Of a stretch of DNA of 64,000 nt, positions 12,751 through 64,000 are shown in pieces. This DNA is from Macrolepiota albuminosa (taxonomy: Eukaryota; Basidiomycota; Agaricomycetes; Agaricales; Agaricaceae). The notes under the pieces are model-generated. The model saw nothing but the letters and a program-made list of their open reading frames with translations, made no database searches and was not told where the DNA came from. The stretch is taken from positions 62,001 through 126,000 of the forward strand of contig JAMWFC010000028.1 in NCBI GenBank assembly GCA_027475525.1. Direction: 5' to 3'. The position numbers and the translations under genes are program-made. Each line of letters opens with the position of its first letter. Positions within the stretch are counted from its first letter, which is position 1.

Positions 12751-12904
12751 TGTTCTATATTCAATACCATTAACTGTTTTTAATTCAATCCATGATGTAG
12801 CATTCATTACAACAGTTAGAAGCATTCGGTTCTATATTCAATACCATTAACTGTTTTTAATTCAATCCATGATGTAGCATTCATTACAACAGTTAGAAGC
12901 ATTC
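12751..12904. repeat. 77-bp tandem duplication (one mismatch)
   Basis: 12751-12827 recurs at 12828-12904; only the first base differs. It lies inside the Helitron relic. Confidence 0.9.
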
Positions 12905-50049: not shown

Positions 50050-51420
50050 GATCTGGCAGATGAGTCGCGATAGGAACTGAAACCTCCTTATTGGCATTGC
50101 TTTATAATCAATATCTATCAGACACTTACAGTCAGAAGGACAGGGTAGGGCATCACAACGGTACGTGTCATACGTTGTACGGGAGCCCGCTTTGTGCTGT
50201 ACCATACGTGTCCAGCGGAGTCCGCTACACTGGAGCGGAGCAGTCCCCACAGTGCCATAGAATACAGAGCTGTGGACATGTCACAATGTGCTGTATGACA
50301 CGGTCCAGTGGATCAATAAAAGGCGGGCACACACATGCGCACGCAGGCCTGGCGGATGCCAGCGGACACTAGCGGACGTCAATGTGCATCAGCGGCCGCC
50401 GGCGGGCATCAGCACATGAGTGAAAACCTCCTCCATTGGCGGACTTCATGGCATGAATAAACCCTCCTCGAGGTTCCCCACTTCCCTCCCCTCTCCATTC
50501 CTCCCCGCAATAACTCAAGGCTGCGCATCTCCCCTTCCATCCTTTTCCCACCCCTGATGCCAGCGTACGTCCACAAAAGGGCCCTGCAAATCTACGCAGG
50601 CCTATGCAAGCCACTAGCGGACATCTACGCAAACATACGTCGACGGACTCAAACCTACGTGGGCCCTCCCAGGCCTGCGCAGGGCACCAGTGGACATCCA
50701 CAGAGGCCTACACAGGTCCATGGAGTCTGGTTGGACCAAGGGAAAAAGGAAACTTCATCTTGCCTGCTGTATGCCTGTGGGGGGGAATCGAACCCCCAGC
50801 CTTGAGAAAGCCTCCAGCAACGGAACACACATTTAACCGTTGCACCACAGGTCCGTTACTAACGGATAGATTCAAAGGTCGGATAACACAATGAACAGAC
50901 GCCCACCTACGTTTCTGCAGGTTCCCGTATGGATTTTTTGAGGTGGAAGGGGGGTGGCATACCTCCCAAAAGAGTTTTTGTGGCCTGAAAGGGGCGTTGG
51001 CATCAGCAGCCATCAGCTGGCCATCAGCTGGCATCTGTCGGAGTTCGTTGGCAGCCATTGTGACCTGCTGGCATCCGTCATGCATCCGTCGGCATCCACC
51101 GGATATCCGCTGGTATCCGTTGGCAACCCCCAGCATTGTCTGGCATCAGGGTGGGAGAGAAAGAAACGGGGTGCGTGGGTGTCCACCGCATGGGGTGGCA
51201 TCTCGGAGAGCATGGGGGGTGACAGAAGAGGGATGGGGATGGGGAGAAAGAGGGGGAAGGGGGAAGGGGAGGAGCGTGGGTGTCTGCTGGTACACCAGTG
51301 GACGTAGCAGACATCGGACATCAGGTCAGGGGGAAGGAGGGAAGCGGGGTGCATGTGGTGGACGGGGGTGGCATGTGAGGTAGTGTGGGAAGTGGAGAGG
51401 ATGGCACTGGGGAGAAAGAG
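50050..51420. other. GC-rich, low-complexity spacer left of the KDZ element
   Basis: No gene. Many short direct repeats of AGCGGAC, GGCATC and GCTGGCATC types (50370-50420 and 51000-51150), and GGGGA-rich purine runs (51230-51440). Near 50157-50306 two GTGTCATAC-like motifs face each other. The right inverted repeat of the KDZ element runs to the window end, so this spacer may itself be part of the left inverted repeat. Confidence 0.5.
50773..50853 (-). tRNA. tRNA-like sequence with intact A and B boxes
   Basis: On the minus strand: acceptor CCTGTG pairing with CACAGG at the other end, A box TGGTGCAACGG, and a perfect T-arm GGGGGTTCGATTCCCCC. The anticodon stem is not clear; the interior is long (81 nt overall), which could mean an intron or a long variable arm. 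It is the best preserved of the tRNA-like sequences here. I do not assign an amino acid. Confidence 0.45.
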
Positions 51421-51533
51421 GGGAAAGGGCGGAAGAGGGTGCGTGAGTGTCCGCTGTCTGCTGGCATGCCAGCGGACGGTAGTGGATGGTAGCTGATGTC
51501 GGCATGTGAGCCAGCTGATGTCAGTAGTGCAAC

Positions 51534-51612
51534 CAGTCCTAGTGGTTCAGTGGAATATTCATTTATTGATATTCAATATTGTGTACAGTGGTGGATTCTA
51601 CTCCTACTTCAC
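51534..51612 (+). ncRNA. tRNA-like unit 1
   Basis: A box TAGTGGTTCAGTGG is intact; the B box is decayed (GGATTCTACTCC). About 79 nt. Its inverted partner is 63807-63884. Confidence 0.5.
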
Positions 51613-51993
51613 CTTAACAGGGACTAATGCTGTGTTTTTATATGGGTGCATTTTTGCTCTACATATACATCGTACTGACCTGTAGTATGCGCCTGTGGTA
51701 GTAGATCTAACCAAAACTCTAGCAATTACTGAAGCGGAATAGGATGGAGGAGTTGACACATGAGATCATTCTAGTTCACATGACAAGTGACAATACACTA
51801 GGGCTGACTACCTTTTTTTACAAAGACCAGCACAAAGGTAGCCCGCCACAGTGTATTATCAACTGGTCATGAGCACTGGAATGACCACATGCGCGAACTC
51901 GTCCATCTTATGCCACTGCAGAAATCTCTGGAGTTTTCAACAGATCAAATTCATGACGCTAGCGGACGTCAGCGGCCTGCTGCTATTATATAA

Positions 51994-52076
51994 TGTGAAC
52001 TAGTGGGAGTCGAACCCACTTCTTGTGCACAATATGAAATATCAATTGATGAATATTCCATTGTACCACAGACGCT
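51994..52076 (-). ncRNA. tRNA-like unit 2
   Basis: On the minus strand: A box TGGTACAATGG and B box GGTTCGACTCC, both intact. Partner of 63411-63490 in the opposite inverted repeat. Confidence 0.55.
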
Positions 52077-52292
52077 TGCTACAAGTCAGGACGGTGTTCA
52101 TGTAGTGCACAAACGGACCCATATAGAATTTGAACGGATAGAGATTTTACTGCAACTGGTGCATCTGTATTGAATTGACAATATTAGACTGATATTTATT
52201 TACACCATAGAAGTATACAGGAAAGAGGAAAACCATGGTTTGTAGCAGAATATTAGACTGATATTGATTTACACCATAGCATTATACATGAA

Positions 52293-52371
52293 GCGTCTGT
52301 GGTGTAGTGGAATATTTCCAATTGGTATCCCTTGTATCTTGCAATAGGTGGGTTCGACTCCTCCTAGTGCA
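52293..52371 (+). ncRNA. tRNA-like unit 3
   Basis: GCGTCTGTGGTGTAGTGG start, as in glycine-type tRNAs; A box TGGTGTAGTGG; B box GGTTCGACTCC; ends TAGTGCA. 79 nt. Confidence 0.55.
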
Positions 52372-52451
52372 TTGACATCGAACTCAAAAATTTTTGACCA
52401 CACACAGAATATTAGACTGATGTTTATTTACATCATAGCAATGTATAGCAA

Positions 52452-52530
52452 GCATCGGTGGTCTAGTGGAATATTATCTATTGGTCTTTATTATATCTTG
52501 CAGTAGACGGGTTTGATTCCTACTAGTGCA
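52452..52530 (+). ncRNA. tRNA-like unit 4
   Basis: A box TGGTCTAGTGG; B box GGTTTGATTCC; ends TAGTGCA. Acceptor pairing is only partial, so it is likely a pseudo-tRNA. Confidence 0.5.
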
Positions 52531-52664
52531 TTTATATCAAACTGTTTAGAATTTTTGACCTGCTTAGCTAATTGTTATTTACTACACAGTATGATAAACA
52601 AAGTAAGGTCCTAATTTAAACATAGTGACATGATATCTATTTAGACTATAGCAGTGTACAGTAA

Positions 52665-52744
52665 GCATCGATAATCTAGTGGAATATTATCCATTGGTCT
52701 CCATTGTGTGTTGCAGTAGGTGGGTTCAACTCCTGCTTGGTGCA
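52665..52744 (+). ncRNA. tRNA-like unit 5
   Basis: A box degraded (ATAATCTAGTGG); B box GGTTCAACTCC; lies in the first 215-bp tandem unit. Confidence 0.45.
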
Positions 52745-52879
52745 ATAAACATTAAAACGTTTGCAATTTTTGACCTGCTTAGCTAATTGTTATTTACTAC
52801 ACAGTATAATAAACAAAGTAAGGTCCTAATTTAAACAGAGTGACATGATATCTATTTAGACTATAGCAGTGTACAGTAA

Positions 52880-52959
52880 GCATTGATGGTCTAGTGGAAT
52901 ATTATCCATTGGTGTTCATTGTGTGTTGCAGTAGGTGGGTTCGACTCCTGCTTAGTGCA
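52880..52959 (+). ncRNA. tRNA-like unit 6
   Basis: A box TGGTCTAGTGG and B box GGTTCGACTCC intact; lies in the second 215-bp tandem unit. Confidence 0.5.
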
Positions 52960-53154
52960 ATAAACATTAAGACGTTTGCAATTTTTGACCTGCTTAGCTA
53001 ATTGTTATTTACTAAACTGTAAGATAAACAAAGTAAGGTTTTGTCAAGCAATAAATCAAACTTCTTTTGTAATTTAAACAGGGTCACATGATATCTATTT
53101 TCAGAACTTGCTTCGTGTAAAGTTCTCGTCCGTTTCTTTAATCCTCCATCCGCC

Positions 53155-55026
53155 ATGTCTAACGAAGAACTCCACCAACGGGTCATTGACGCGGATGTTC
53201 GAGTATTATACCTTGCTCTCAGAGGAGACCTGCGACAACTCAAAGCACAGCAGAAGGACCTGGTAAGATACAAGCACTCCTGCCTAATAGACATGCACTA
53301 ATAGTCGTCCTGTAGATTGACATGTGGTTCAAGGTTAGGGACGTCAAGGATGACAAGAAACTCCTCCTTGATGCCAGGAGAAGTTTCATCAACGAAGTTA
53401 TCCCGCTACTCCAGAGCAAGCTTTCTGACGAGGATATGACCAGGCGGTTGAAGGACGCTGCGAAGAAATGGACCCAGAGGAGCGGAAGGGGGGAAGAACC
53501 AAGTGGGGGCGAAGAACGACCTGATCCGTTGACGGCACCGGCACGAGAAGACCAGATAGGTTATAGGCCAGCAGCAGGAGATTTGTCTGGTCCGTCACCG
53601 ATTCCAAAGAAGAGAAAACGACCGAGTCCTCCAGCGGCAGGAGATTTGTCTGGTCCGTCGCCAAGTCCCAAGAAGCCAAAATGGGTGACCTATATTGGTC
53701 AACCTCCTCCTGGTACCTATCGTCGACAGAAGGAGCAGGAGGACGAGGATGAAGAGGAAGAGGAAGAGGAAGAACAAGAGGGCAGAATACCGAAGGGGGA
53801 AATTACTGGAGGGATGCTGTTGGGCAGGTATCTGAGGACAGCACCTCGTCGCGAGGGTCAGCACATCAACCCCCTTTGCCAATATTGCGCAAGTAAGCGG
53901 CTACAGTGTGTCAGGACAAAGGGCGGCACCACATGCAATCCCTGCCGGCTCATTCGCAAGCGAACATGCAGTCTGACGATTGTCAAGAAAACCGTCAAGC
54001 CCAGCAACAAGGGAAAGGGGAAAAAACCACTGAGAAAGAAGTCAGTGATGATTATTGAGAGTGATGACGGTATGAAACTCTTTTCCTGCTCAAATAGCTA
54101 ACCAATAGTTAGCAGATGAACCAACCAGTCCAATCATGGGACCATCAAAACCGTCCGTCCGTCCATCCCAACCGTCGACCTCCAACCGCCTAGCGGACCC
54201 TCTTCCGGTCAAGGGAAAGGGCAAGGAGCGGGCAATGGAGTCTAGTCACAGTGAGGACATTGTGGCTGGTGTAATGGCAGGGGTGGAGAGCCGTTTGGAC
54301 AGGATGGAGAATGGGTTCCAGGAAGCATTGCGGAATGTTGGGGAGCAGGTGCAGGATGGGTTTGTCACAGCTGAGGCGAGCTGGTTACCGTGTATTGAGG
54401 ACTTCTTCCGTTGCTACCAGACTCAGGTCAACACACTCGGTGGCTGCATAGAAACCCTGCAAACAAATGTTTCTCTTGCGGGTGAGACACTTGAAGACCA
54501 CGCCGGACAGATCCGTCAGACGGAAGAGCAGATCCGCAATATTTGGGGTGTGGTTGACACTTTGCAGAATCAACTTCACATCTCTACCCATCCCTCCAGT
54601 CCGTCAGCTCAGGATGATGTGGCAGTGCATCCAACAGGGCATAGTGGACTTGGACCCATCATTGAAGAGGAAGAAACCACTCCTGACCCCATCGCTGACC
54701 AATTCCCTGCCACTGCTAACATATCCGTTCCCACTGGTAACATCTCTGCCCTCGCCACTGACCAATCCCATCATGCCGCTGACTTATCCGCTCTCACCGT
54801 TGCTCCATCCCCGCTTCAACAAACATCCTCAGGGACGTCTCCCACACAAACATCTCTGTCACCCCCTCAACCATCTTCTGTCCCTCCGCCAGTCCCTGCC
54901 AAGGACCCTCTCCCTGGCCCAAGGGGACGGGCTCGCAGCAACTCCCGAAGTAGTTGGCTGCCAATGCAATGGACCCGATCATCCAGTCGGCTTACTGAGA
55001 GACAGAAGGCAACAGAAGACAAGTGA
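53155..55026 (+). CDS. Zn2Cys6-like/coiled-coil protein in the KDZ element
   Basis: Exon 1 is 53155-53262 (MSNEELHQRVIDADVRVLYL), intron 53263-53315, exon 2 53316-54069, intron 54070-54115 (or 54112), exon 3 to TGA 55024-55026; about 590 residues with no internal stop. Exon 2 has two copies of AAGDLSGPSPxPKK, an acidic run (EDEDEEEEEEEEQEG), then a cysteine array CQYCASKRLQC..CNPCRLIRKRTC with spacing C-x2-C-x6-C-x8-C-x2-C-x7-C. That matches the Zn2Cys6 binuclear-cluster layout of fungal DNA-binding proteins. Exon 3 encodes a coiled coil (VAGVMAGVESRLDRMENGFQ, and a second helix with QIRQTEEQIRNIWGVVDTLQ) and a Ser/Thr/Pro-rich tail. It lies inside the inverted ends on the same strand as the KDZ gene, so a role in transposition or in regulating the element is an inference from position only. 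Confidence 0.75.
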
Positions 55027-55161
55027 AGATGGATGGTTTAAGATGGACGGCTTATTATTGCTGATCATTGGTCCTCACTGCCTTGTAAGGAGCAGATTCA
55101 TACCGGTAACCAGACACAATTTCTGATGGAGTGATCAGATGATGAGCAAAGGTGGAGAAAA
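55027..55161. other. Short spacer between convergent genes
   Basis: 3' ends of the plus-strand gene (55026) and the minus-strand gene (55162) face each other. Nothing else seen. Confidence 0.5.
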
Positions 55162-56404
55162 CTAGGATTCACTGTAATGAGTATTTAGATAGTCCCAGAC
55201 AAGCATTTCCAATTCTGCCCGAGTTTGAAATATATTTGGTCCTGGATCTGCTGGTAATATTGGGAATCCATCCCTATCCAGATCAAGGATGAGGTCATGG
55301 CGTGTAAGGATAGGAGGAGTCAAATCATGGGGTGATTGCATGTTGGACGGCATGTCTCTACCAAGAAGAGCAGACATGTAATCCATCATCTTCTTGTTGA
55401 GGTCACTAACAAGGTCAGGAAAGGAGTCTTGAAAGGTAGGTCAGTTAGCATGGGTCAAGTATGACATATTGTCATGACTATAATTGGTGTCAAAATTGTT
55501 TAAAGAATGATGGCACCACATACATTCTAATAGTCATGCCTTCATCTGCATACCAACCAACAACAGTCCAACTCAACATGCCCATCTCTCTAAATCAAAG
55601 CACATCTGCATCGTCCACACGCTTCAAACCGTGCTTTCAGGCCTTCCTGGAGAGACAACGATTAGAAAGCGGAATCAAGTGGATGGATGTACAACGAATA
55701 GAGAACGGATGGGGGACGGAAGGAGTACCAACTTGTGCTGAATTTCTGGCGGATTTCCTTTTTCGCTCCATTCTGCCACCATCTTCCGTAAACGACGTTC
55801 CTCCTGCAGTGTGAGTTGATGCATAACATTTTTGACAGCCACATTATATTGTGCAAATGCATCAAATCCCGAGGCATTGTGATTCTTACCCCTCAACAAG
55901 TTCTGGATCTCCTTGTTTATCTCCTTTGCCATTGTCTGCCGGACAACATCTCGCAGTGAAGTTTTCAGGAGCACCTTTGGATCTTTATGCTGGTAATAAG
56001 GGTGCCAGCAATTCTTGATATACTGGACAACCTTCTATTCAAGCAAATGATGTCTAGTTCTTTGCAATGAGTTGCTGGGTGCCAGCAATTCTTGATATAC
56101 TGGACAACCTTCTATTCAAGCAAATGATGTCTAGTTCTTTGCAATGAGTTGCTGTATCTACTTTCATTCTCTCCGCCCACTCTTCCCCTGTCTTTGGCTC
56201 CGTCCCCTTAGTGGCCCAGTAGTTGAAGATATCCGTTAGGATTTTATCCTTTAAGATAGCAGTCCGAGCTTGAGGAGTAGTTGAGGAGTGGTAGAGTTCC
56301 TTGTATGGTTCAAAGATAGATCTTTCTTCCGCTGTAAATATCGGTTCCACTCGTCTTTTCTTTGGTGAAAATATTGGTTCAGGTGGTTGCAGGAGGGCAG
56401 ACAT
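55162..56404 (-). CDS. Unknown gene in the KDZ element
   Basis: Starts at ATG 56404 (MSALLQPPEPIFSPKKRR). The first exon has FTAEERSIFEPYKELYHSST and NYWATKGTEPKTGEEWAERM. A GTAGAT..GAATAG intron follows, then KVVQYIKNCWHPYYQHKDPK, TMAKEINKEIQNLLRG and a helical segment ending NPPEIQHK. A larger intron (about 55680-55440) leads to the last exon, DSFPDLVSDLNKKMMDYMSA and TRAELEMLVWDYLNTHYSES, stop at 55162. It is mostly helical and charged with no motif I can name. The first intron lies in the exact 77-bp duplication 56000-56153, so an extra copy of that intron/exon edge is probably artificial. Genes of this sort sit near KDZ transposases in agarics as far as I recall, but no function is known to me. 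Confidence 0.55.
56000..56153. repeat. Exact 77-bp tandem duplication
   Basis: 56000-56076 recurs unchanged at 56077-56153, across an intron-exon edge of the minus-strand gene. Confidence 0.95.
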
Positions 56405-57798
56405 GTTTGTAGACAATATAATTTTCTGCAACCACACAGTTCTCAACCGAAGGATCACATGATAAAATATAGATTTTCCGTTCAGTGTCTGTTGATGACA
56501 AATGGATTCCGTTTGTCTTTGATGGATAGGGTCTGCTGTCCGCTGGTATCCGGCCCGTCCAAATTGGGGCATATTCCCAATATCGATGAGCGGTCTCATT
56601 AGATATCCCGTACAATGGCTAGGTCCTGGCCATAGATATTTTGATCATGAATCTGAATTCTCTAAAGAAACGCAAGCGACCAAAAACAACAGTCATCAGA
56701 CAAAGGGACCTCATCCCGTTTGCTGAGGAAAGGACATGACTCACTCAGAACACACGAGGGTTGCCAGTCCTCATAACACAACGGCTACCACTGGGTCCCG
56801 CTCCCATTGTAACTGGTGCACCACCTGTGGCATTTGCAGATGATGATAACTTTGCACACTTGGACAATAATCCAACGGTAGATGATGTAGATGATACAAT
56901 GCCCATATCCATAAGGCATGTAAAGGTGATTTGAATGTATGCTATTATTGAGAGCAAATTATTCAAGTTCATACATAGACACAGGCAGATTATCTTAACG
57001 ACTTCATCAACCATGTTCCACAGTTGCTCAATGGATTGCTTGGTCGTGAATCAATGGATGACGTTACTGATTGCCTTGCTTGTCCTGACCATTACCTCGC
57101 ACGATGGCGATGCCGTGATTGCGTTGGGTCAAGAATATTCTGTCGCGGATGTTTCCGCCGCACGCACGACTCCAACCCGTTTCACCGACCTGAAGTATGG
57201 AATGGTAGGTATTTCCAACCAATGAATATGTTGGATACTGGAGGGTATTTCTATATCCAACACAATTCATTGCATGCAAACTGTCATCAAGGGAAGGTCA
57301 GGGTCAGGGCTCTTGAGGACCACGAGCAGAAAAAGGACATTCAGGAGCAAGAGTTTCTACGACTCAAATATCAACTGGATGTTGAACTTCCATCAGCGGA
57401 TAGCAATCCGGGACATCCGGCAGCGCATTCATCCATGACTTCAGATTTTCTGAGCAGACTTCAGGATGCCAGCCTTGATCAAATCATGGAAGAGGAAGAG
57501 CAACAGGACCCAGAGAATAATGTGCCAATAGAAGATATTCCAGAAGATTGGCCAGCCATGAACAGGTTCTGTATGGACAGATATGATTGCTTTGGGAATC
57601 CAATACAATGGATTGTTCACACAACTGGAGTACACTACATCACTGTCATTTCATGTGAGTGTTCTGGGATGGATGTCTTGGTAGAGGATATCATCCGCTC
57701 GCAGCTGGTCCCCAGTACATTTGATCAGACACAAACATATTTTACAACGGCTGTGCTGGACGACTTCCGTCTGACAAATCTAGAGTGCAAAGCATCCG

Positions 57799-57952
57799 CC
57801 TACCAGTACTGGCAGAAAATTGCAAGAATAACTTCCCCGATTGCATCTTCTGGTGAGGTGGATAATCTTTACCGCCCTACCAGTACTGGCAGAAAATTGC
57901 AAGAATAACTTCCCCGATTGCATCTTCTGGTGAGGTGGATAATCTTTACCGC
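57799..57952. repeat. Exact 77-bp tandem duplication in the KDZ gene
   Basis: 57799-57875 recurs unchanged at 57876-57952. With one copy the frame runs from DNLYR straight into KLRRLSRSWRWL. Confidence 0.95.
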
Positions 57953-58531
57953 AAGCTACGACGACTTTCTCGTTCATGGCGGTGGCTGAAGAAGTTGAAG
58001 TGGGCAGGCTTTGGCCATGATGAATCGAGGCATCCCATGGCGCCGGACCGTGGTGAACTTGCAATATTCTGTCCAACTTGTCCCCAACCAGGAGTCAATC
58101 TTCCATCCAACTGGGAAGAAGATCCCGTCTGGTGGAAGTTCAATCGTTCTTTAATGATGGACGGCAACTTCAAGGCGGATCACGTCCGACATTCTAATCC
58201 TGCTCATGATGTATGGCATTCAGAAGGTGGTGGTATGATGGCCAGGAGGGATGAGCTCACCCACTATCTCAAGCGCGCAAAGGAACAGCCAACGGTGAGT
58301 GACATTCTTTAACTCTACCTGTCCACCATCCGCTCATCAATTCAATCCTGTCCGTCGGCTGTCCAGGGAGCCGCCTGTGAAAACACATTCAAAGCTATTG
58401 AAAAGGCCCTGATGATGAACAAGTCATGCGACATTACTGGTATTGTTGCAATGGCATGTACACAGCATGGCTGCTTTGCTCCTAATAGCATAACAAACTT
58501 GACCCGTGATGAAGGCCAGGTTTACACAGAC

Positions 58532-59049
58532 TTTTCCATCACATGGGCAGTTAAGACAACCAGCATGAATGGGATTCAGCATCTCCTACTAGTATATGAC
58601 ATAGCATGCCAGTGGTGTGTCAAATTTTCTGAATGGCTTGCCAAGGCCAGAGAAGTCCTGCTGGATAATCTACTCATCGACTTTGCAATAGGACTTCTTC
58701 ATGTCCATAGGCATAAGGAGGATTGTTTTTTCTGCTTTGCCCCATCCTTTATTCCTGGGGCCGGTCATTTGGCTGGGGAGATAATTGAACTTTTCCATCA
58801 CACGGGCAGTTAAGACAACCAACATGGATGAGATTCAGCGTCTCCTACTGGTATATGACATAGCATGCCAGTGGTGTGTCAAATTTTCTGAACAGCTTGC
58901 CGAGGCCGGAGAAGTCCTGCCAGATAATCTAGTCGTGGACTTTGCAACAGGACTTCTTCATGTCCATGGGCATAAGGAGGATTGTTTTTTCCGCTTTGCC
59001 CTGTCCTTCATTCCTGGGGCTGGTTATTTGGCTGGGGAGATAAGTGAAA
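58532..59049 (+). repeat. Diverged 259-bp duplication inside the KDZ core
   Basis: 58532-58790 and 58791-59049 encode the same segment (FSITxAVKTTxM to AGEI) with roughly 20 differences, mostly transitions. 259 is not a multiple of three, so the second copy is out of frame with the first. The downstream copy continues the protein. Confidence 0.85.
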
Positions 59050-60505
59050 GTCTCTGGTCTACACTAAATGAAGTCTCACAGATGGCCTGTACAGCTCCCT
59101 TGGCACATCGGGCAGAAATCCTTGATGATCACATGTGTGACTCAAACTGGAAGAAGCTGCTTGACATGGTTCCATTCCTATGTCGAAAGTACAGGACTGC
59201 TGTTGAGATGAGAGATGCAGCCGTTCAATATTTCACCGAGCGATCCGTCGGAATATCAACAGATTTACTAACAAGCTGGGAAGCCGGAATAGCTAAGGCA
59301 GAAAGGCTCAGAGAGGAGGGAAACCGTAAAGCAATGGATATTCTGAAAGCTCGTACAATGACCTTCAATAGTGCAAGTGAAGACCGAATGGCAGCAGACA
59401 GTGGAAACCACTCAACGGATGTTGCAGCGACGGATATTCATTCCTTCTGGATTCAACTTGCCCTTGACATTGAGGAGCAGCAGTAAGGTGTATTGCTGAT
59501 GGCCCAAACTATTTCACTAATTGGAAGCTCAGAATTGCAATTCAGGACCAGGTTCGCCATTTGAATCGGCATGCAAGCAATGATGATCGGCAAAAGGTCG
59601 AGGCGGAAAGAGAAATATTAAGGGTTCGACTCAATGTCCTTGCTGCTTCTCAGGACAGGAGTGGGTTCATTGCTGGTGGTACCGCCGGCGGATAACTTTG
59701 AACCAACAGATGTAGTTGTTCCAGAAGATTTTGAAATCCTTCCTATCTATGATCATGGGTAATGTCTCACCATTAACAATGATAGAGCGCAATCTGCGCT
59801 TGATTCAAATTGAAAGGCTCCTGCAAGCCCTTCAGGAATTCATTGCAGAGAAATCATTTCTATATTCTCACATTGTCTGGGTCGCCCCAAGCAAGAATGT
59901 GAAAACTCGAGCTTGCGCATCTCTTCAAAGAATCCAGGCCTCAATCCTGGTGAAGGCTCATGCCTATACACAATGCCGCAGTGCTCTGCTGCGACTGGGA
60001 TCAGACCCCAGCATTCAGAGAAAGTATCCAGTTCTACAGAAAGTGGATTTGAATGCAAGCACAGCTATACGAGATCCCAACATTCCTGGTTCATCAAGGA
60101 TCAAGGTATCTTGGATATGGCACTCTAATTCTGATGCAGAAAATGAATCTGCAACTATTTCTGAATGTGAGTCCTCTTGTTAACATTTCCATTATCATTA
60201 CATCCGTTTGTGAACATATCTCTTCAGTTAATCGTGTTCATTATCTACGTGCTAGAGCACAACGCAACAGATGGACAGAGGAATGTCAGCTTGTCATGAG
60301 TGAAATGGAGTGGACAGTTTGGTATTTCTTCAACCAGGCAGATATTTGGTCGAAGCATGGTATGTCAGTGAAGAAAAGAGGTCTCCAGTCATATGCCTAC
60401 AAAAAGGTGGCCATGTGGCAAGAATTGGCCTCAATGGCAATTGATAAATTTAGGCGGGTGCTTCCTGATTTTATTCCCCCCCAAACTGCAAGAGATCCGC
60501 TGTGA

Positions 60506-60728
60506 AAATGGTAGATGCAGAGACCGATTGATGTGACGGATGCAGAGACTGATTGATGTGACGGATTCAGAGACAGATTGAACTGATGGATGCAGCTTGC
60601 TGCCATTAGCAGATGATTGGAACGGATTTGTGACAGTCATGTGCAATGGAATTGTTGAAAATCACTTTTGTTTACAAGGCACAAAAATCTGATACATAGC
60701 AGTATCTGCTTCTACAAGCAAGAGTGCA
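60506..60728. other. Spacer with short tandem repeat
   Basis: 60515-60600 contains four imperfect copies of GATGCAGAGAC(T/C)GATTGA(T/A) (about 26-bp period) just after the KDZ stop. Confidence 0.7.
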
Positions 60729-62768
60729 ATGGCGTCTACCTCTGTACCACACAATGTCATGTCCCAAGCTACTGTACTAGAAAATTTGCAAGAGGTTGTT
60801 GACTACATCGAGTCACGCCTCATTGCAGCACTTTCCATATTTGGCAATCTTGCACCAAGTCTTGAAGCGGAAGAGGCATGGATTATCCAGCATCTAGACA
60901 AGGAGTTGGTAAGATAACTTCAAAATGTGTAAATATATTAGGATCTGACTGTGTGCCATAGAACTTTGTATTGTCATATCTGGGGGCTGCATCACTGAAT
61001 AATGTGGTCTGCAATGTCCCAGACATTATCAAAAGCATGAGCCGATTTTTCCCTCTCCAAAATCAGCAAACTTTGCCCACAGAGATCCTGAAGTTTGTTG
61101 ATGGCTGTCAAGGTCTTATCAGGAATCTGTATGGCTGTGATTGGTGGAACCACATTGGCCGAGAGGATGTTCAGGTCTTAAGCAATGAAACGCTGGAGCA
61201 TTGCCTTCTTGTACATCAGCAAGGCTTCCACTCTCTTGAAAGCTTCTTGGCATGCAACCGCCGGCTGCCCATGACATTGCCATCCGATGGATTGGTGTCC
61301 GTCCCAGCACCAGACGATTTGCTCTGTGTGTTTGCAGGTAGCGGATCCACCAGGGGCCACCAGCGGACGCTTCTAGCCCTAGACAAGTGGCAGTTGCTGG
61401 ATAGGACGGAACATGTGCCAACAGCCAACGATATGATCCGCTTAAGTCCATTGCTGCTTCCATTGTCAGTTCCGTTGCCAGGTCCGTGGATCCTGCTCGG
61501 ATGGGCCAATTGACAGGCATCGAGTCCCATACCAACAGTATTGATGGTGAGCAGCCTGATCCTCAAGACTGCCTCTCCATGGCCCATCCTACCACTCTCC
61601 CTGATGTCAACTCTCCCCAATGGCCATCCTTGACACATATCGAACCCTCGAACGCACAACATCCATTCCACCACCTCTACAGTCAGAGTAAACCTGGACT
61701 GGTGTATGGCCCTACAATGGAAAACTCTCACGTTGTCGTTCAACTAGCATCCCAACTTCCTTCCGCCCCAGCAGCTCATGTCCGTGGGACATTCAGGAAG
61801 CTGGGGGAAACTGACGACGACCAGGTGGATATCCCTAATCCATTCATTAGTGACCCTGATTTAGAGGGTATCCCTCCTTTGTTCATTCCTGCGAAAGAGG
61901 AGACGGAAGACGAATCTTTGCCACCTTTGTTCATTCCTGTGCAAGAGGAGATGGAAGAGGATTCTTTGCCTCCTTTGTTTATTCCTGCGGAAGAGGAGAC
62001 CAAAGACAATGAATTTCCCCCTTTGTTCATTCCTGTGGAAGAGGAGATGGACGACAATTCTTTGCCACCTCTATTCATTGTTGGTGAAGAAGCAGAAGGA
62101 CTAACAGCGATGGAGACCGTGGCGGCTGGTGACGGCAGACAAACGGAAGTCCGGAGCGGCAGACGTATGGCGACCGAGGACGAAGAAAACCTTCCGCCGC
62201 TATTTCTTGTGACGGCAGAAGAGACAGATGGAGGCATGGCAGCCGATGATGAAGAAAATCTTCCACCGCTTTTTGATGTAACAGCTCTTCAAATCCCGTC
62301 TTCCCCCTTCCAACAATCTCCTTCTCCAACCCTACCTACTGGTAACAATGTCCAGGAGTGGGAGGAATATGAGTCACGTATGACTCGACATGAGGATCAG
62401 AGAAGAATTAACAAATTGTATCAACAATGTGAGTATAATTTGGCACTGGTAATCATAGTTAATTTATTTCAACAGAACAAGAATTTTGCGCTAAAGCAAA
62501 ACATGGTCGATGTAGGCCCATTGGCCCTTTCAATCAAGCTGGTCGTACTGATGATGTGTCTGTTGATATGTCAGAGTCACCCTCACCATCTTCATCGTCA
62601 GGCCTGATAGCAAACTATGAAGACATCACACTTCCCAGACCTCAAGGGCCATATACACCGGACGACTTTGCATTTTTGACAGCAGACTACCTGCTTGATG
62701 AGGATTTGTTCTATTCAGACACATTACATGAATCTAATGAAGAGGAGGAATACACATCGGACGAGTAA
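60729..62768 (+). pseudogene. PPLF-repeat protein gene in the KDZ element
   Basis: Function unknown. Exon 1 is 60729-60908 (MASTSVPHNVMSQATVLENL), intron 60909-60961, exon 2 from 60962 (NFVLSYLGAASLNNVVCNVP). The N-terminal part is folded-looking (LSNETLEHCLLVHQQGFHSL). The reading frame changes by one base between about 61380 and 61440, after which SIAASIVSSVARSVDPARMG opens the second part. This part has seven repeats of a (L/F/I)PPLF(I/L/D)(P/V) core separated by Glu-rich spacers (about 61870-62275; PPLFIPAEEE style). A last intron (GTGAGT..CAACAG near 62429-62474) leads to an acidic C-terminus (DEDLFYSDTLHESNEEEEYT), stop at 62768. A stop forms across that last junction and would be removed by one CpG transition. 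Regular acidic-hydrophobic repeats suggest a protein-binding or activation-type region; that is inference. Confidence 0.55.
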
Positions 62769-63082
62769 TTTAATCCTTAGTTACTATAATTCTTGGCTTT
62801 TCCGTTGGTTATTTTTTGTCAAGATTAACCGTCCCGTTGTGCCGCTGATGAATCCATTATAAATCTGTTTGATCCGTTACCTCCAGTTGTGCACTAAAAG
62901 AAACATAAACTGACAATATTCTGCTAGACCACAGGACATTCTGTGGATTATACATAAATATCACTCTAGTATTGTGTACTAGGCTACAGCACTTTACTAC
63001 AGACATTTCAATTAGTTTGGACAGGACTCAGGTCCACTAAGATTAACTGTCCCATTGTTTTGTTCTGTTATGCCACTCTCAG
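62769..63082. other. Non-coding segment before the right tRNA-like block
   Basis: No gene seen; ACTGTCCCATTG-type and CCGTTGTG-type motifs occur twice each near 62830 and 63050. Confidence 0.4.
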
Positions 63083-63163
63083 TGCACTAGTGGGATTCGA
63101 ACCCGGCTCTTGTGCACAATATGAAATATCAATGTATCAATATTCCATTCGACCACAGATCCT
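63083..63163 (-). ncRNA. tRNA-like unit 7
   Basis: On the minus strand: A box TGGTCGAATGG and B box GGTTCGAATCC. Same internal sequence (ATATTTCATATTGTGCACAA) as units 2 and 9. Confidence 0.55.
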
Positions 63164-63237
63164 TACCAAAAATTAGTACAGTTTACATCTAGTGCAAAAA
63201 TGCAGCAGTATAAAAAGACACCATTATACGTCATTAT

Positions 63238-63314
63238 GGTGGACTAGGGGAGTCGAACCTGCCACTCCACACAATACTGAAAATTGAGTGGGTCAGATCA
63301 ACTACCATAGGCCA
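63238..63314 (-). ncRNA. tRNA-like unit 8
   Basis: On the minus strand: A box TGGTAGTTGAT (weak) and B box GGTTCGACTCC. Decayed. Confidence 0.4.
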
Positions 63315-63410
63315 CTGACAGGCAGGTTTGATCCCCGCTAGTGCACATTATATAATAGCAGCAGGCCACTGACATCTGCTAGCGTGAACACTGTCCTGAC
63401 TTCTAAGTAA

Positions 63411-63490
63411 GCGCCTGTGGTACAATGGAATATTGATAAATTGATATTTCATATTGTGCACAAGAGGTGGGTTCGACTCCTGCTAGTGCA
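63411..63490 (+). ncRNA. tRNA-like unit 9
   Basis: GCGCCTGTGG start, A box TGGTACAATGG, B box GGTTCGACTCC, ends TAGTGCA. Five of seven acceptor pairs are possible. Confidence 0.55.
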
Positions 63491-63745
63491 TATTAGAGCA
63501 GCAGGCCGCTGATGTCCGCTAGCATCATTAATGTGATCCGTTTAAAACTCCAGAGATTTCTGCAGTGGCATGGCTTGGTCGTCTTTGCGCATGTGGTCAT
63601 TCCAGATCTCATGACTATGCGCAACTTCGTCCAACCCATACCCGCTTCAGTAATTTCTAGCGTTTTTAACGGATCAACTTGATGATGCTAGCAAGTGATG
63701 AACGGATATTTTATTAGGGCTTACAGGCCCTATTAAAATATTTGT

Positions 63746-63800
63746 CACTAGCAGGAGTCCAACCCTGCCTCTCAATATTCCATTGTCACCATTAGACCCC
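63746..63800 (-). ncRNA. tRNA-like unit 10, partial
   Basis: On the minus strand: TGGTGACAATGG start and GGTTGGACTCC B-like box; internally shortened. Confidence 0.35.
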
Positions 63801-63806
63801 ATTAAG

Positions 63807-63884
63807 GTGGAGTAGGGGAAGTAGAACCCACCACTGTACACAATATTGAATATCAATAAACGAATATTCCACTGAACCACTATG
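63807..63884 (-). ncRNA. tRNA-like unit 11
   Basis: Inverted partner of unit 1: A box TAGTGGTTCAGTGG on the minus strand; B box GGTTCTACTTCC decayed. Confidence 0.5.
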
Positions 63885-64000
63885 ACTGGTTGCACTGCTG
63901 ACATCAGCTGGCTCACATGCCAACATCAGCTACCATTCACTACCGTCCGCTGGCATGCCAGCAGACAGCGGACACTCACGCACCCTCTTCCGCCCTTCCC

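Follow-up and report, generated by a model that had tools for sequence, protein, structure and literature searches.

tRNA-like promoter modules in the long inverted repeats of a multicopy KDZ DNA transposon from Macrolepiota albuminosa

A KDZ transposon with Kyakuja-type termini and long inverted repeats

KDZ transposons are known from many fungi. The window analysed here, a stretch of 64,000 nucleotides from the genome of Macrolepiota albuminosa (contig JAMWFC010000028.1, here C74, positions 62001-126000; the assembly comprises 100.1 Mb in 129 contigs), contains most of one such element. With the flanking sequence of C74 added, the element measures 15,128 bp and extends from window position 50141 to 65268, its right tip (C74:127268) lying beyond the window, and the 7-bp target site duplication (TSD) AGAAGGA is present on both sides. 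The original prediction had the element start at 51421 and proposed extending the sequence past 64000 to find both tips and the target duplication; all three were located, with the true left tip at 50141, position 51421 being the partner of the arm truncated at 64000. Similarity among 20 aligned arms continues about 1.27 kb outward of 51421, and a 200-bp probe from this position has at least 40 long near-identical places in the genome (94-100% identity, best 40 of 431 candidates scored).

The two ends are joined by an inverted repeat that measures about 1.9-2.0 kb instead of the predicted 600 bp or more, and its arms are 91.6% identical over 1830 aligned positions. The repeat begins 10 bp inside the tips, since the first 10 bp are unlike between the left and right ends (CAGGGTAGGG and CACATAGAGA, respectively). 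Each of 20 arms terminates in one of these two sequences, with CATCACAAC next after either, and the termini are 5'-CA..TG-3' in 20 of 20 tips. Exact 7-bp TSDs were found in six of seven tip pairs, the seventh having one mismatch, and in three of four further pairs, the fourth being non-matching (all four of these span 100 N). At up to one mismatch the genome contains 153 left and 173 right tips, with none in the controls. Among the 192 exact tips listed, convergent neighbours at most 40 kb apart comprise 46 left/right and 2 like/like pairs; 25 of the left/right pairs are 15-20 kb long, 17 are shorter and 4 longer. The element is thus a KDZ DNA transposon present in many copies, with termini of the Kyakuja type and inverted repeats of about 2 kb, and its arms carry tRNA-like type-2 promoter modules. 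Because of the long inverted repeat we apply the Kyakuja label to the termini and do not file the element as Kyakuja.

The predicted KDZ transposase inside the element was confirmed by matches to PF18758 (KDZ) in two frames (58313-58813 and 58785-59486; 94.2 and 78.9 bits, cut-off 26.6) and to PF18803 (CxC2) in a third (59.4 bits, cut-off 27). The other seven of the ten reading frames scanned had no family match; the four genes expected between the repeats were not confirmed, the three matching frames all belonging to the transposase. The transposase of the window copy is probably non-functional because a 259-bp direct duplication lies inside its KDZ domain. Genome-wide there are at least 162 exon-level KDZ matches (best 150 of 351 candidates scored). 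The arms and transposase frames are as follows:

50141-52130, plus strand: left arm, tip CAGGGTAGGG and about 2.0 kb of inverted repeat; TSD AGAAGGA; partner at about 63380 to 65268
56979-57908, plus strand: frame with the CxC2 cysteine cluster (PF18803), entering an exact 77-bp duplication at 57799-57952
58313-59486, plus strand: KDZ transposase domain (PF18758) in two frames, containing the 259-bp direct duplication at 58530-59047 (91%)
63380-64000, minus strand: right arm, inner part, running on to tip CACATAGAGA at 65268, outside the window

Subterminal units with paired A and B boxes

Units were located as an A box (TRGYNNARNGG) and a B box (GGTTCGANTCC) 38-44 nt apart in either orientation. 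The element contains 7 perfect A/B pairs and 12 at up to two mismatches; at the same thresholds there were no pairs in any of 30 dinucleotide shuffles or in window positions 1-50000. At three mismatches the element still contained 12, compared with a mean of 0.3 (maximum 2) in the shuffles and 2 in positions 1-50000. The eleven or so tRNA-like units that had been assigned to the ends of the element are therefore real, with 12 pairs found, but they do not form the ends: the outermost 630 bp or so of each side contain no unit, and the units are subterminal. The units were identified at the following positions:

50769-50854, minus strand: unit O, outer; both boxes perfect; cloverleaf-like four-stem fold; mirror at 64556-64641 (plus strand), outside the window
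51536-51619, plus strand: unit T, in the inverted repeat; A box perfect, B box GATTCTACTCC degenerate
51991-52075, minus strand: unit S, in the inverted repeat; both boxes perfect
52293-52376, plus strand: array unit a1; both boxes perfect
52452-52535, plus strand: array unit a2; B box with one mismatch, GGTTTGATTCC
52665-52748, plus strand: array unit a3; one mismatch in each box; acceptor pairs 7/7
52880-52963, plus strand: array unit a4, 215 bp from a3; both boxes perfect; acceptor pairs 7/7
63078-63162, minus strand: right inner unit R1; both boxes perfect
63234-63321, minus strand: decayed unit; B box perfect, A box with two mismatches (L042 735-822)
63411-63495, plus strand: unit Sr, mirror of S; both boxes perfect
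63803-63886, minus strand: unit Tr, mirror of T; A box perfect, B box with two mismatches

The modules have the layout of a type-2 RNA polymerase III (Pol III) promoter, with 40-42 nt between the A box and the B box, and are inherited and copied with the element. Between the boxes, T, S, a1-a4 and R1 are 56-95% alike, and because they have sequence in common throughout, local duplication within the element is the probable source of their spread. The two units farther out, O and its mirror, are of different sequence, O being 38-50% like the others. The 215-bp period on which two of the units had been noted to ride was borne out, with copies (52536-52750 and 52751-52965) that are 93% identical. 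The right arm of the window copy has one S-type unit in place of the two, about 585 bp apart, seen in six other right-tip arms, and so seems to have lost a stretch.

The units are not tRNA genes

Canonical acceptor pairing is complete (7/7) in two of ten units, a3 and a4, and reaches 1 to 4 of 7 pairs in the other eight; unit O has a perfect 7-bp acceptor stem displaced by three bases. The earlier description of decayed acceptor stems therefore applies to most units, with a3, a4 and O as exceptions. On unit O, whose cloverleaf-like fold has a z score of -2.1, Rfam matched only the T arm (tmRNA model, 13.9-16.7 bits, cut-off 47), with a weak mascRNA match in addition. Full-length matches to the Rfam tRNA model were obtained for a3 (19.3 bits, E 0.33) and a4 (18.5 bits, E 0.54), both below the cut-off of 29 bits, and ARAGORN in its bacterial setting called no tRNA in the window. 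On these two grounds, we regard the units as tRNA-like promoter modules judged by their sequence, and not as tRNA genes.

The genome's own tRNA genes were sampled at 63 scored places (of 4905 first-look candidates), among which, by length, there was apparently no tRNA-Gly. ARAGORN called 17 of the 20 places that were fetched, two of them without a clear isotype and none as Gly or Glu. A probe with a tRNA-Gly sequence returned zero candidates, an uninformative empty answer.

The units are part of one KDZ lineage

A search of the genome, as the original prediction had suggested, found 579 perfect A/B pairs at spacings of 39-43 nt and 607 occurrences of a 30-base unit pattern, with none in either control. 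Among the pairs listed (about the first hundred), all but C6:1095203, C6:1096848 and C13:69564 resemble element units by eye. At spacings of 26-38 nt there were 8 perfect pairs (control 1), of which 5 are shortened element units by sequence. Twelve solitary-looking or oddly placed units were chosen among the pattern places listed (about the first hundred of the 607) and fetched; in every one of the 12 the alignment to element ends extends well past the unit, with longest matches that are 70-92% identical.

The order of the units is likewise fixed. From the tip inward, O-T was found in 20 of 20 arms and O-T-S in 19, the exception being L060. Units a1-a4 come next in nine of ten left-tip arms (exception L051), and Sr and R1 in seven of ten right-tip arms; of the remaining right-tip arms, L054 has no further unit, and two have array units. 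In these two (L058, C24:590227-596426; L060, C107:412942-419137) a right-type tip is joined to a left-type inner arm, either because the interior was inverted between the long repeats or through mis-assembly. As far as the matches listed show, the units belong integrally to a single KDZ lineage, and because of the fixed arm order and the placement of the solitary-looking units in element ends, a free-standing short interspersed element (SINE) is practically excluded, in agreement with the original assignment of the units to the KDZ element.

To relate units to transposases, 13 KDZ hits listed on contigs C6-C25 were compared with the units listed. Eight of them, all of the 50/51-217 profile class, have units within 10 kb. 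Hit C6:2932723 (49-217) has units listed at 18.7 and 20.6 kb. For C24:94114 a unit is listed 5.0 kb away, but the hit itself is situated outside the adjacent left tip. No unit is listed within 25 kb of hits C6:816674, C11:807411 and C14:1012592, indicating that the feature is limited to one lineage. KDZ copies lacking these ends, which had been named in advance as evidence against the proposed association, thus exist in other KDZ lineages; they restrict the feature and do not remove it. In L093, a diverged relative that was found by the box pattern and whose arm matches are 75-80% identical, one unit has both boxes intact.

Candidate termination signals and diversity of the boxes

In the window copy the first TTTT follows the B box by 29-36 nt in O, T and a1-a4, that is, in six of the seven left-arm units, and in S, R1, Sr and Tr only by 79-289 nt. 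Over the 20 arms this distance is 35-36 nt for O (19/20), 30 for T (19/19), 29 for a1 (10/10), 33 for a3 (11/11) and 32-33 for a4 (11/11); for a2 it is 10 (nine cases) or 31 (two cases), and among units classed nearest R1 it is 35 in 6/7. When the units were grouped into five lineages, a grouping of our own choice, three had T5 within 41 nt (background 0.061, binomial p 0.002), and T4 within 40 nt gave p 0.02. The positions of the left-arm T-runs would fit Pol III termination.

Diversity of the A and B boxes together was modestly low among recent copies. In 20 arms the nucleotide diversity (pi) was 0.031 compared with 0.049 in shifted masks, 2.1% of shifts being as low (1.3% outside CpG); in 17 arms, after leaving out L054, L058 and L060, whose inner part is poorly aligned (identity 0.89-0.90), it was 0.019 compared with 0.036, with 0.8% of shifts as low (2.6% outside CpG). 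An apparently strong conservation of A boxes in old copies (0.936) was rejected: it reflects ascertainment, the A-box pattern having itself served to find the loci, and in 9 units outside the pattern the value was 0.879 compared with 0.807 in flanks (p 0.04).

Several observations weigh against a TFIIIC/Pol III function of the modules. Taken singly the boxes are inconsistent, with 20.5% (20 arms) and 3.3% (17 arms) of shifts as low for A and 4.2% and 15.5% for B, and in old copies the B boxes have diverged as far as their flanks (0.818 and 0.807). In none of the 20 arms does unit T have a perfect B box. S-type units have no TTTT within 120 nt in 25 of 25 cases, and in the window R1 and Tr reach one only at 193 and 79 nt. 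The scarcity of TTTT inside units (1/115) says little because the background alone gives a probability of 0.80 that a stretch of 62 nt has no TTTT. Folding is mixed, z ranging from -0.09 to -5.2 over ten units with only O cloverleaf-like, and other KDZ lineages of this genome do without the units. The proposal that the internal promoter rather than the tRNA is what is kept is accordingly not demonstrated, preferential retention being weak in the joint diversity, inconsistent for the single boxes and absent for the old-copy B boxes. Taken together, box diversity, T-runs and the decay of boxes in old copies suggest that the boxes may have been used by the element itself while it was active, and argue against their later upkeep by the host.

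Possible roles of the units

Our tentative preference, which falls somewhat short of a probable explanation, is that the KDZ ends carry functional modules of the TFIIIC/Pol III type. According to this model, the modules would bind TFIIIC through their boxes. O, T and a1-a4, with a T-run just behind, would also recruit Pol III and give predicted transcripts of roughly 100-115 nt, whereas S, with no nearby stop, would be a TFIIIC-only site, if it acts at all. The element would probably gain locally open chromatin, or a boundary, at each end, so that its promoters and tips stay accessible. A stronger form of the model, which we consider doubtful, is that the inverted repeats are mobile TFIIIC-based boundary elements, two B-box clusters around a domain of typically 15-20 kb that would insulate the transposon from silencing.

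It is rather unlikely, but deserves serious weight, that the units are functionless passengers, a tRNA-like stretch captured once or twice and multiplied as the ends underwent tandem and inverted duplications. The damaged boxes of several units (the B box of T, a3, and the unit at 63234-63321), the background decay of old-copy B boxes, and repeats that reach beyond the units as in plain duplication are all expected of passengers; the lower joint diversity of the boxes among recent copies, the perfect boxes of two unlike units, and the narrow distance of T-runs in three unit lineages are not. We regard it as unlikely, too, that the units are subterminal transposase-binding repeats derived from captured tRNA-like sequence, with boxes that serve the transposase and not Pol III. 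Subterminal binding repeats in other DNA transposons are similarly repeated, and the units occur in both orientations, in both arms and in fixed order. However, they begin about 630 bp from the tips, and the 38-50% identity of O to the others between the boxes would be odd for the binding site of one protein. Moreover, a copy with 8,214 bp between its tips (C45:1400058) has an exact 7-bp TSD and lacks a1-a4, a deletion that may postdate insertion.

Two further alternatives fare much worse. An independent tRNA-derived SINE family inserted into the element could account for the tRNA-like boxes and for the weak full-length Rfam matches of a3 and a4, but it is very improbable given the fixed order in 20 arms and the 12 of 12 fetched units that lie in element ends, a sample that leaves most of the 607 places unread and single units unscreened for duplications or tails of their own. 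That the element inserted next to ordinary tRNA genes, or that an inversion took place around such genes, with the repeats as its trace, has next to no probability: no observation supports it, ARAGORN found no tRNA in the window, the sole flank region searched, and the units lie inside tips that are set by plain 7-bp TSDs at unrelated sites, contrary to the insertion beside tRNA genes that had been suggested originally.

If the stronger, boundary form of the model is correct, the element would have added several hundred TFIIIC sites to the genome, far above the number of non-element pairs of the same A-box class among the pairs listed. A lineage with tRNA-type promoter modules fixed at high copy number in its arms would allow one to study, in a natural setting, what TFIIIC sites do to chromatin once inserted at hundreds of loci, and whether they help a DNA transposon to escape silencing.

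Comparison with known systems

The inverted repeats of mating-locus boundaries in fission yeast, IR-L and IR-R, contain clustered B boxes, are bound by TFIIIC and flank a domain. The repeats of the window element likewise hold B-box clusters that flank a domain; they differ in being mobile, where IR-L and IR-R are chromosomal, and in that their TFIIIC binding is a prediction. tRNA-derived SINEs have internal A and B boxes and many copies, as do the units described here; unlike SINEs, the units moved as parts of a DNA transposon and were not seen dispersed alone at the 12 fetched loci.

Few KDZ ends have been described, and only Zisupton is called well characterised in one account (PMC12730594). 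The TSD of the window element, at 7 bp, differs from the 8 bp of Zisupton. In the same account, two Kyakuja families of Laccaria (Kyakuja-1_LB and -2_LB, Agaricomycotina) have a KDZ transposase, a 7-bp TSD and 5'-CA..TG-3' termini, all of which the window element shares, and are reported without terminal inverted repeats (TIRs) and with TET/JBP (PMC12730594). The window element, in contrast, has 2-kb inverted repeats from 10 bp inside its tips. No match to PF12851 (TET/JBP) was found in this genome, in a search that had no working positive control. Cryptococcus KDZ1-KDZ3 combine a KDZ transposase and a CxC1 cluster within about 9-11 kb, with TIRs of 139-241 bp and TSDs of 8 bp (KDZ1) or 4-8 bp (KDZ2 and KDZ3) (PMC12810828). 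The window element resembles them in having a KDZ transposase with a CxC cluster and terminal inverted repeats, and differs in its CxC2 cluster, 7-bp TSD and 2-kb inverted repeats.

The words 'tRNA' and 'subterminal' are absent from the main text of PMC12730594, and 'tRNA' occurs 0 times in that of PMC12810828. No KDZ element with such units appeared in the accessible portions of the literature on Kyakuja, on Zisupton and on KDZ with tRNA; in the literature on DNA transposons with Pol III promoters, judged by title or abstract opening, none concerned KDZ.

Probable assembly joins and other reading frames

The window and the loci L001-L060 contain 53 distinct exact tandem duplications in the range of 30-300 bp, and in 47 of these the period is exactly 77 bp. 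The 77-bp duplications occur at differing sites in different copies, and in the window at 12752, 23227, 26646, 39414, 56000 and 57799. A usual k-mer length of a common short-read assembler is 77, and these duplications most likely arose as artefacts of assembly, with broken genes in this genome as a result; taking them as assembly joins, frame breaks there are uninformative about the state of the element. The 215-bp and 259-bp repeats, at 91-93% identity, belong to another kind. Tip-to-tip elements of 249, 251 and 278 bp were considered as unit-free miniature inverted-repeat transposable elements and rejected, since each has 100 N inside, as does one of 1,578 bp; all four of these tip pairs (L094, L095, L096 and L097) are taken as scaffold gaps in longer collapsed elements, which voids them as a test of whether the units are dispensable.

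Two further reading frames of the element had distinctive sequences and no Pfam or other family match. The first gene (53316-54101), which appears by eye to begin at 53155, about 190 bp inward of a4, has a cysteine-rich stretch that looks zinc-cluster-like by eye, and the frame at 61825-62112 consists in part of 48-bp (16-residue) tandem repeats of the type PPLFIPxEEE.

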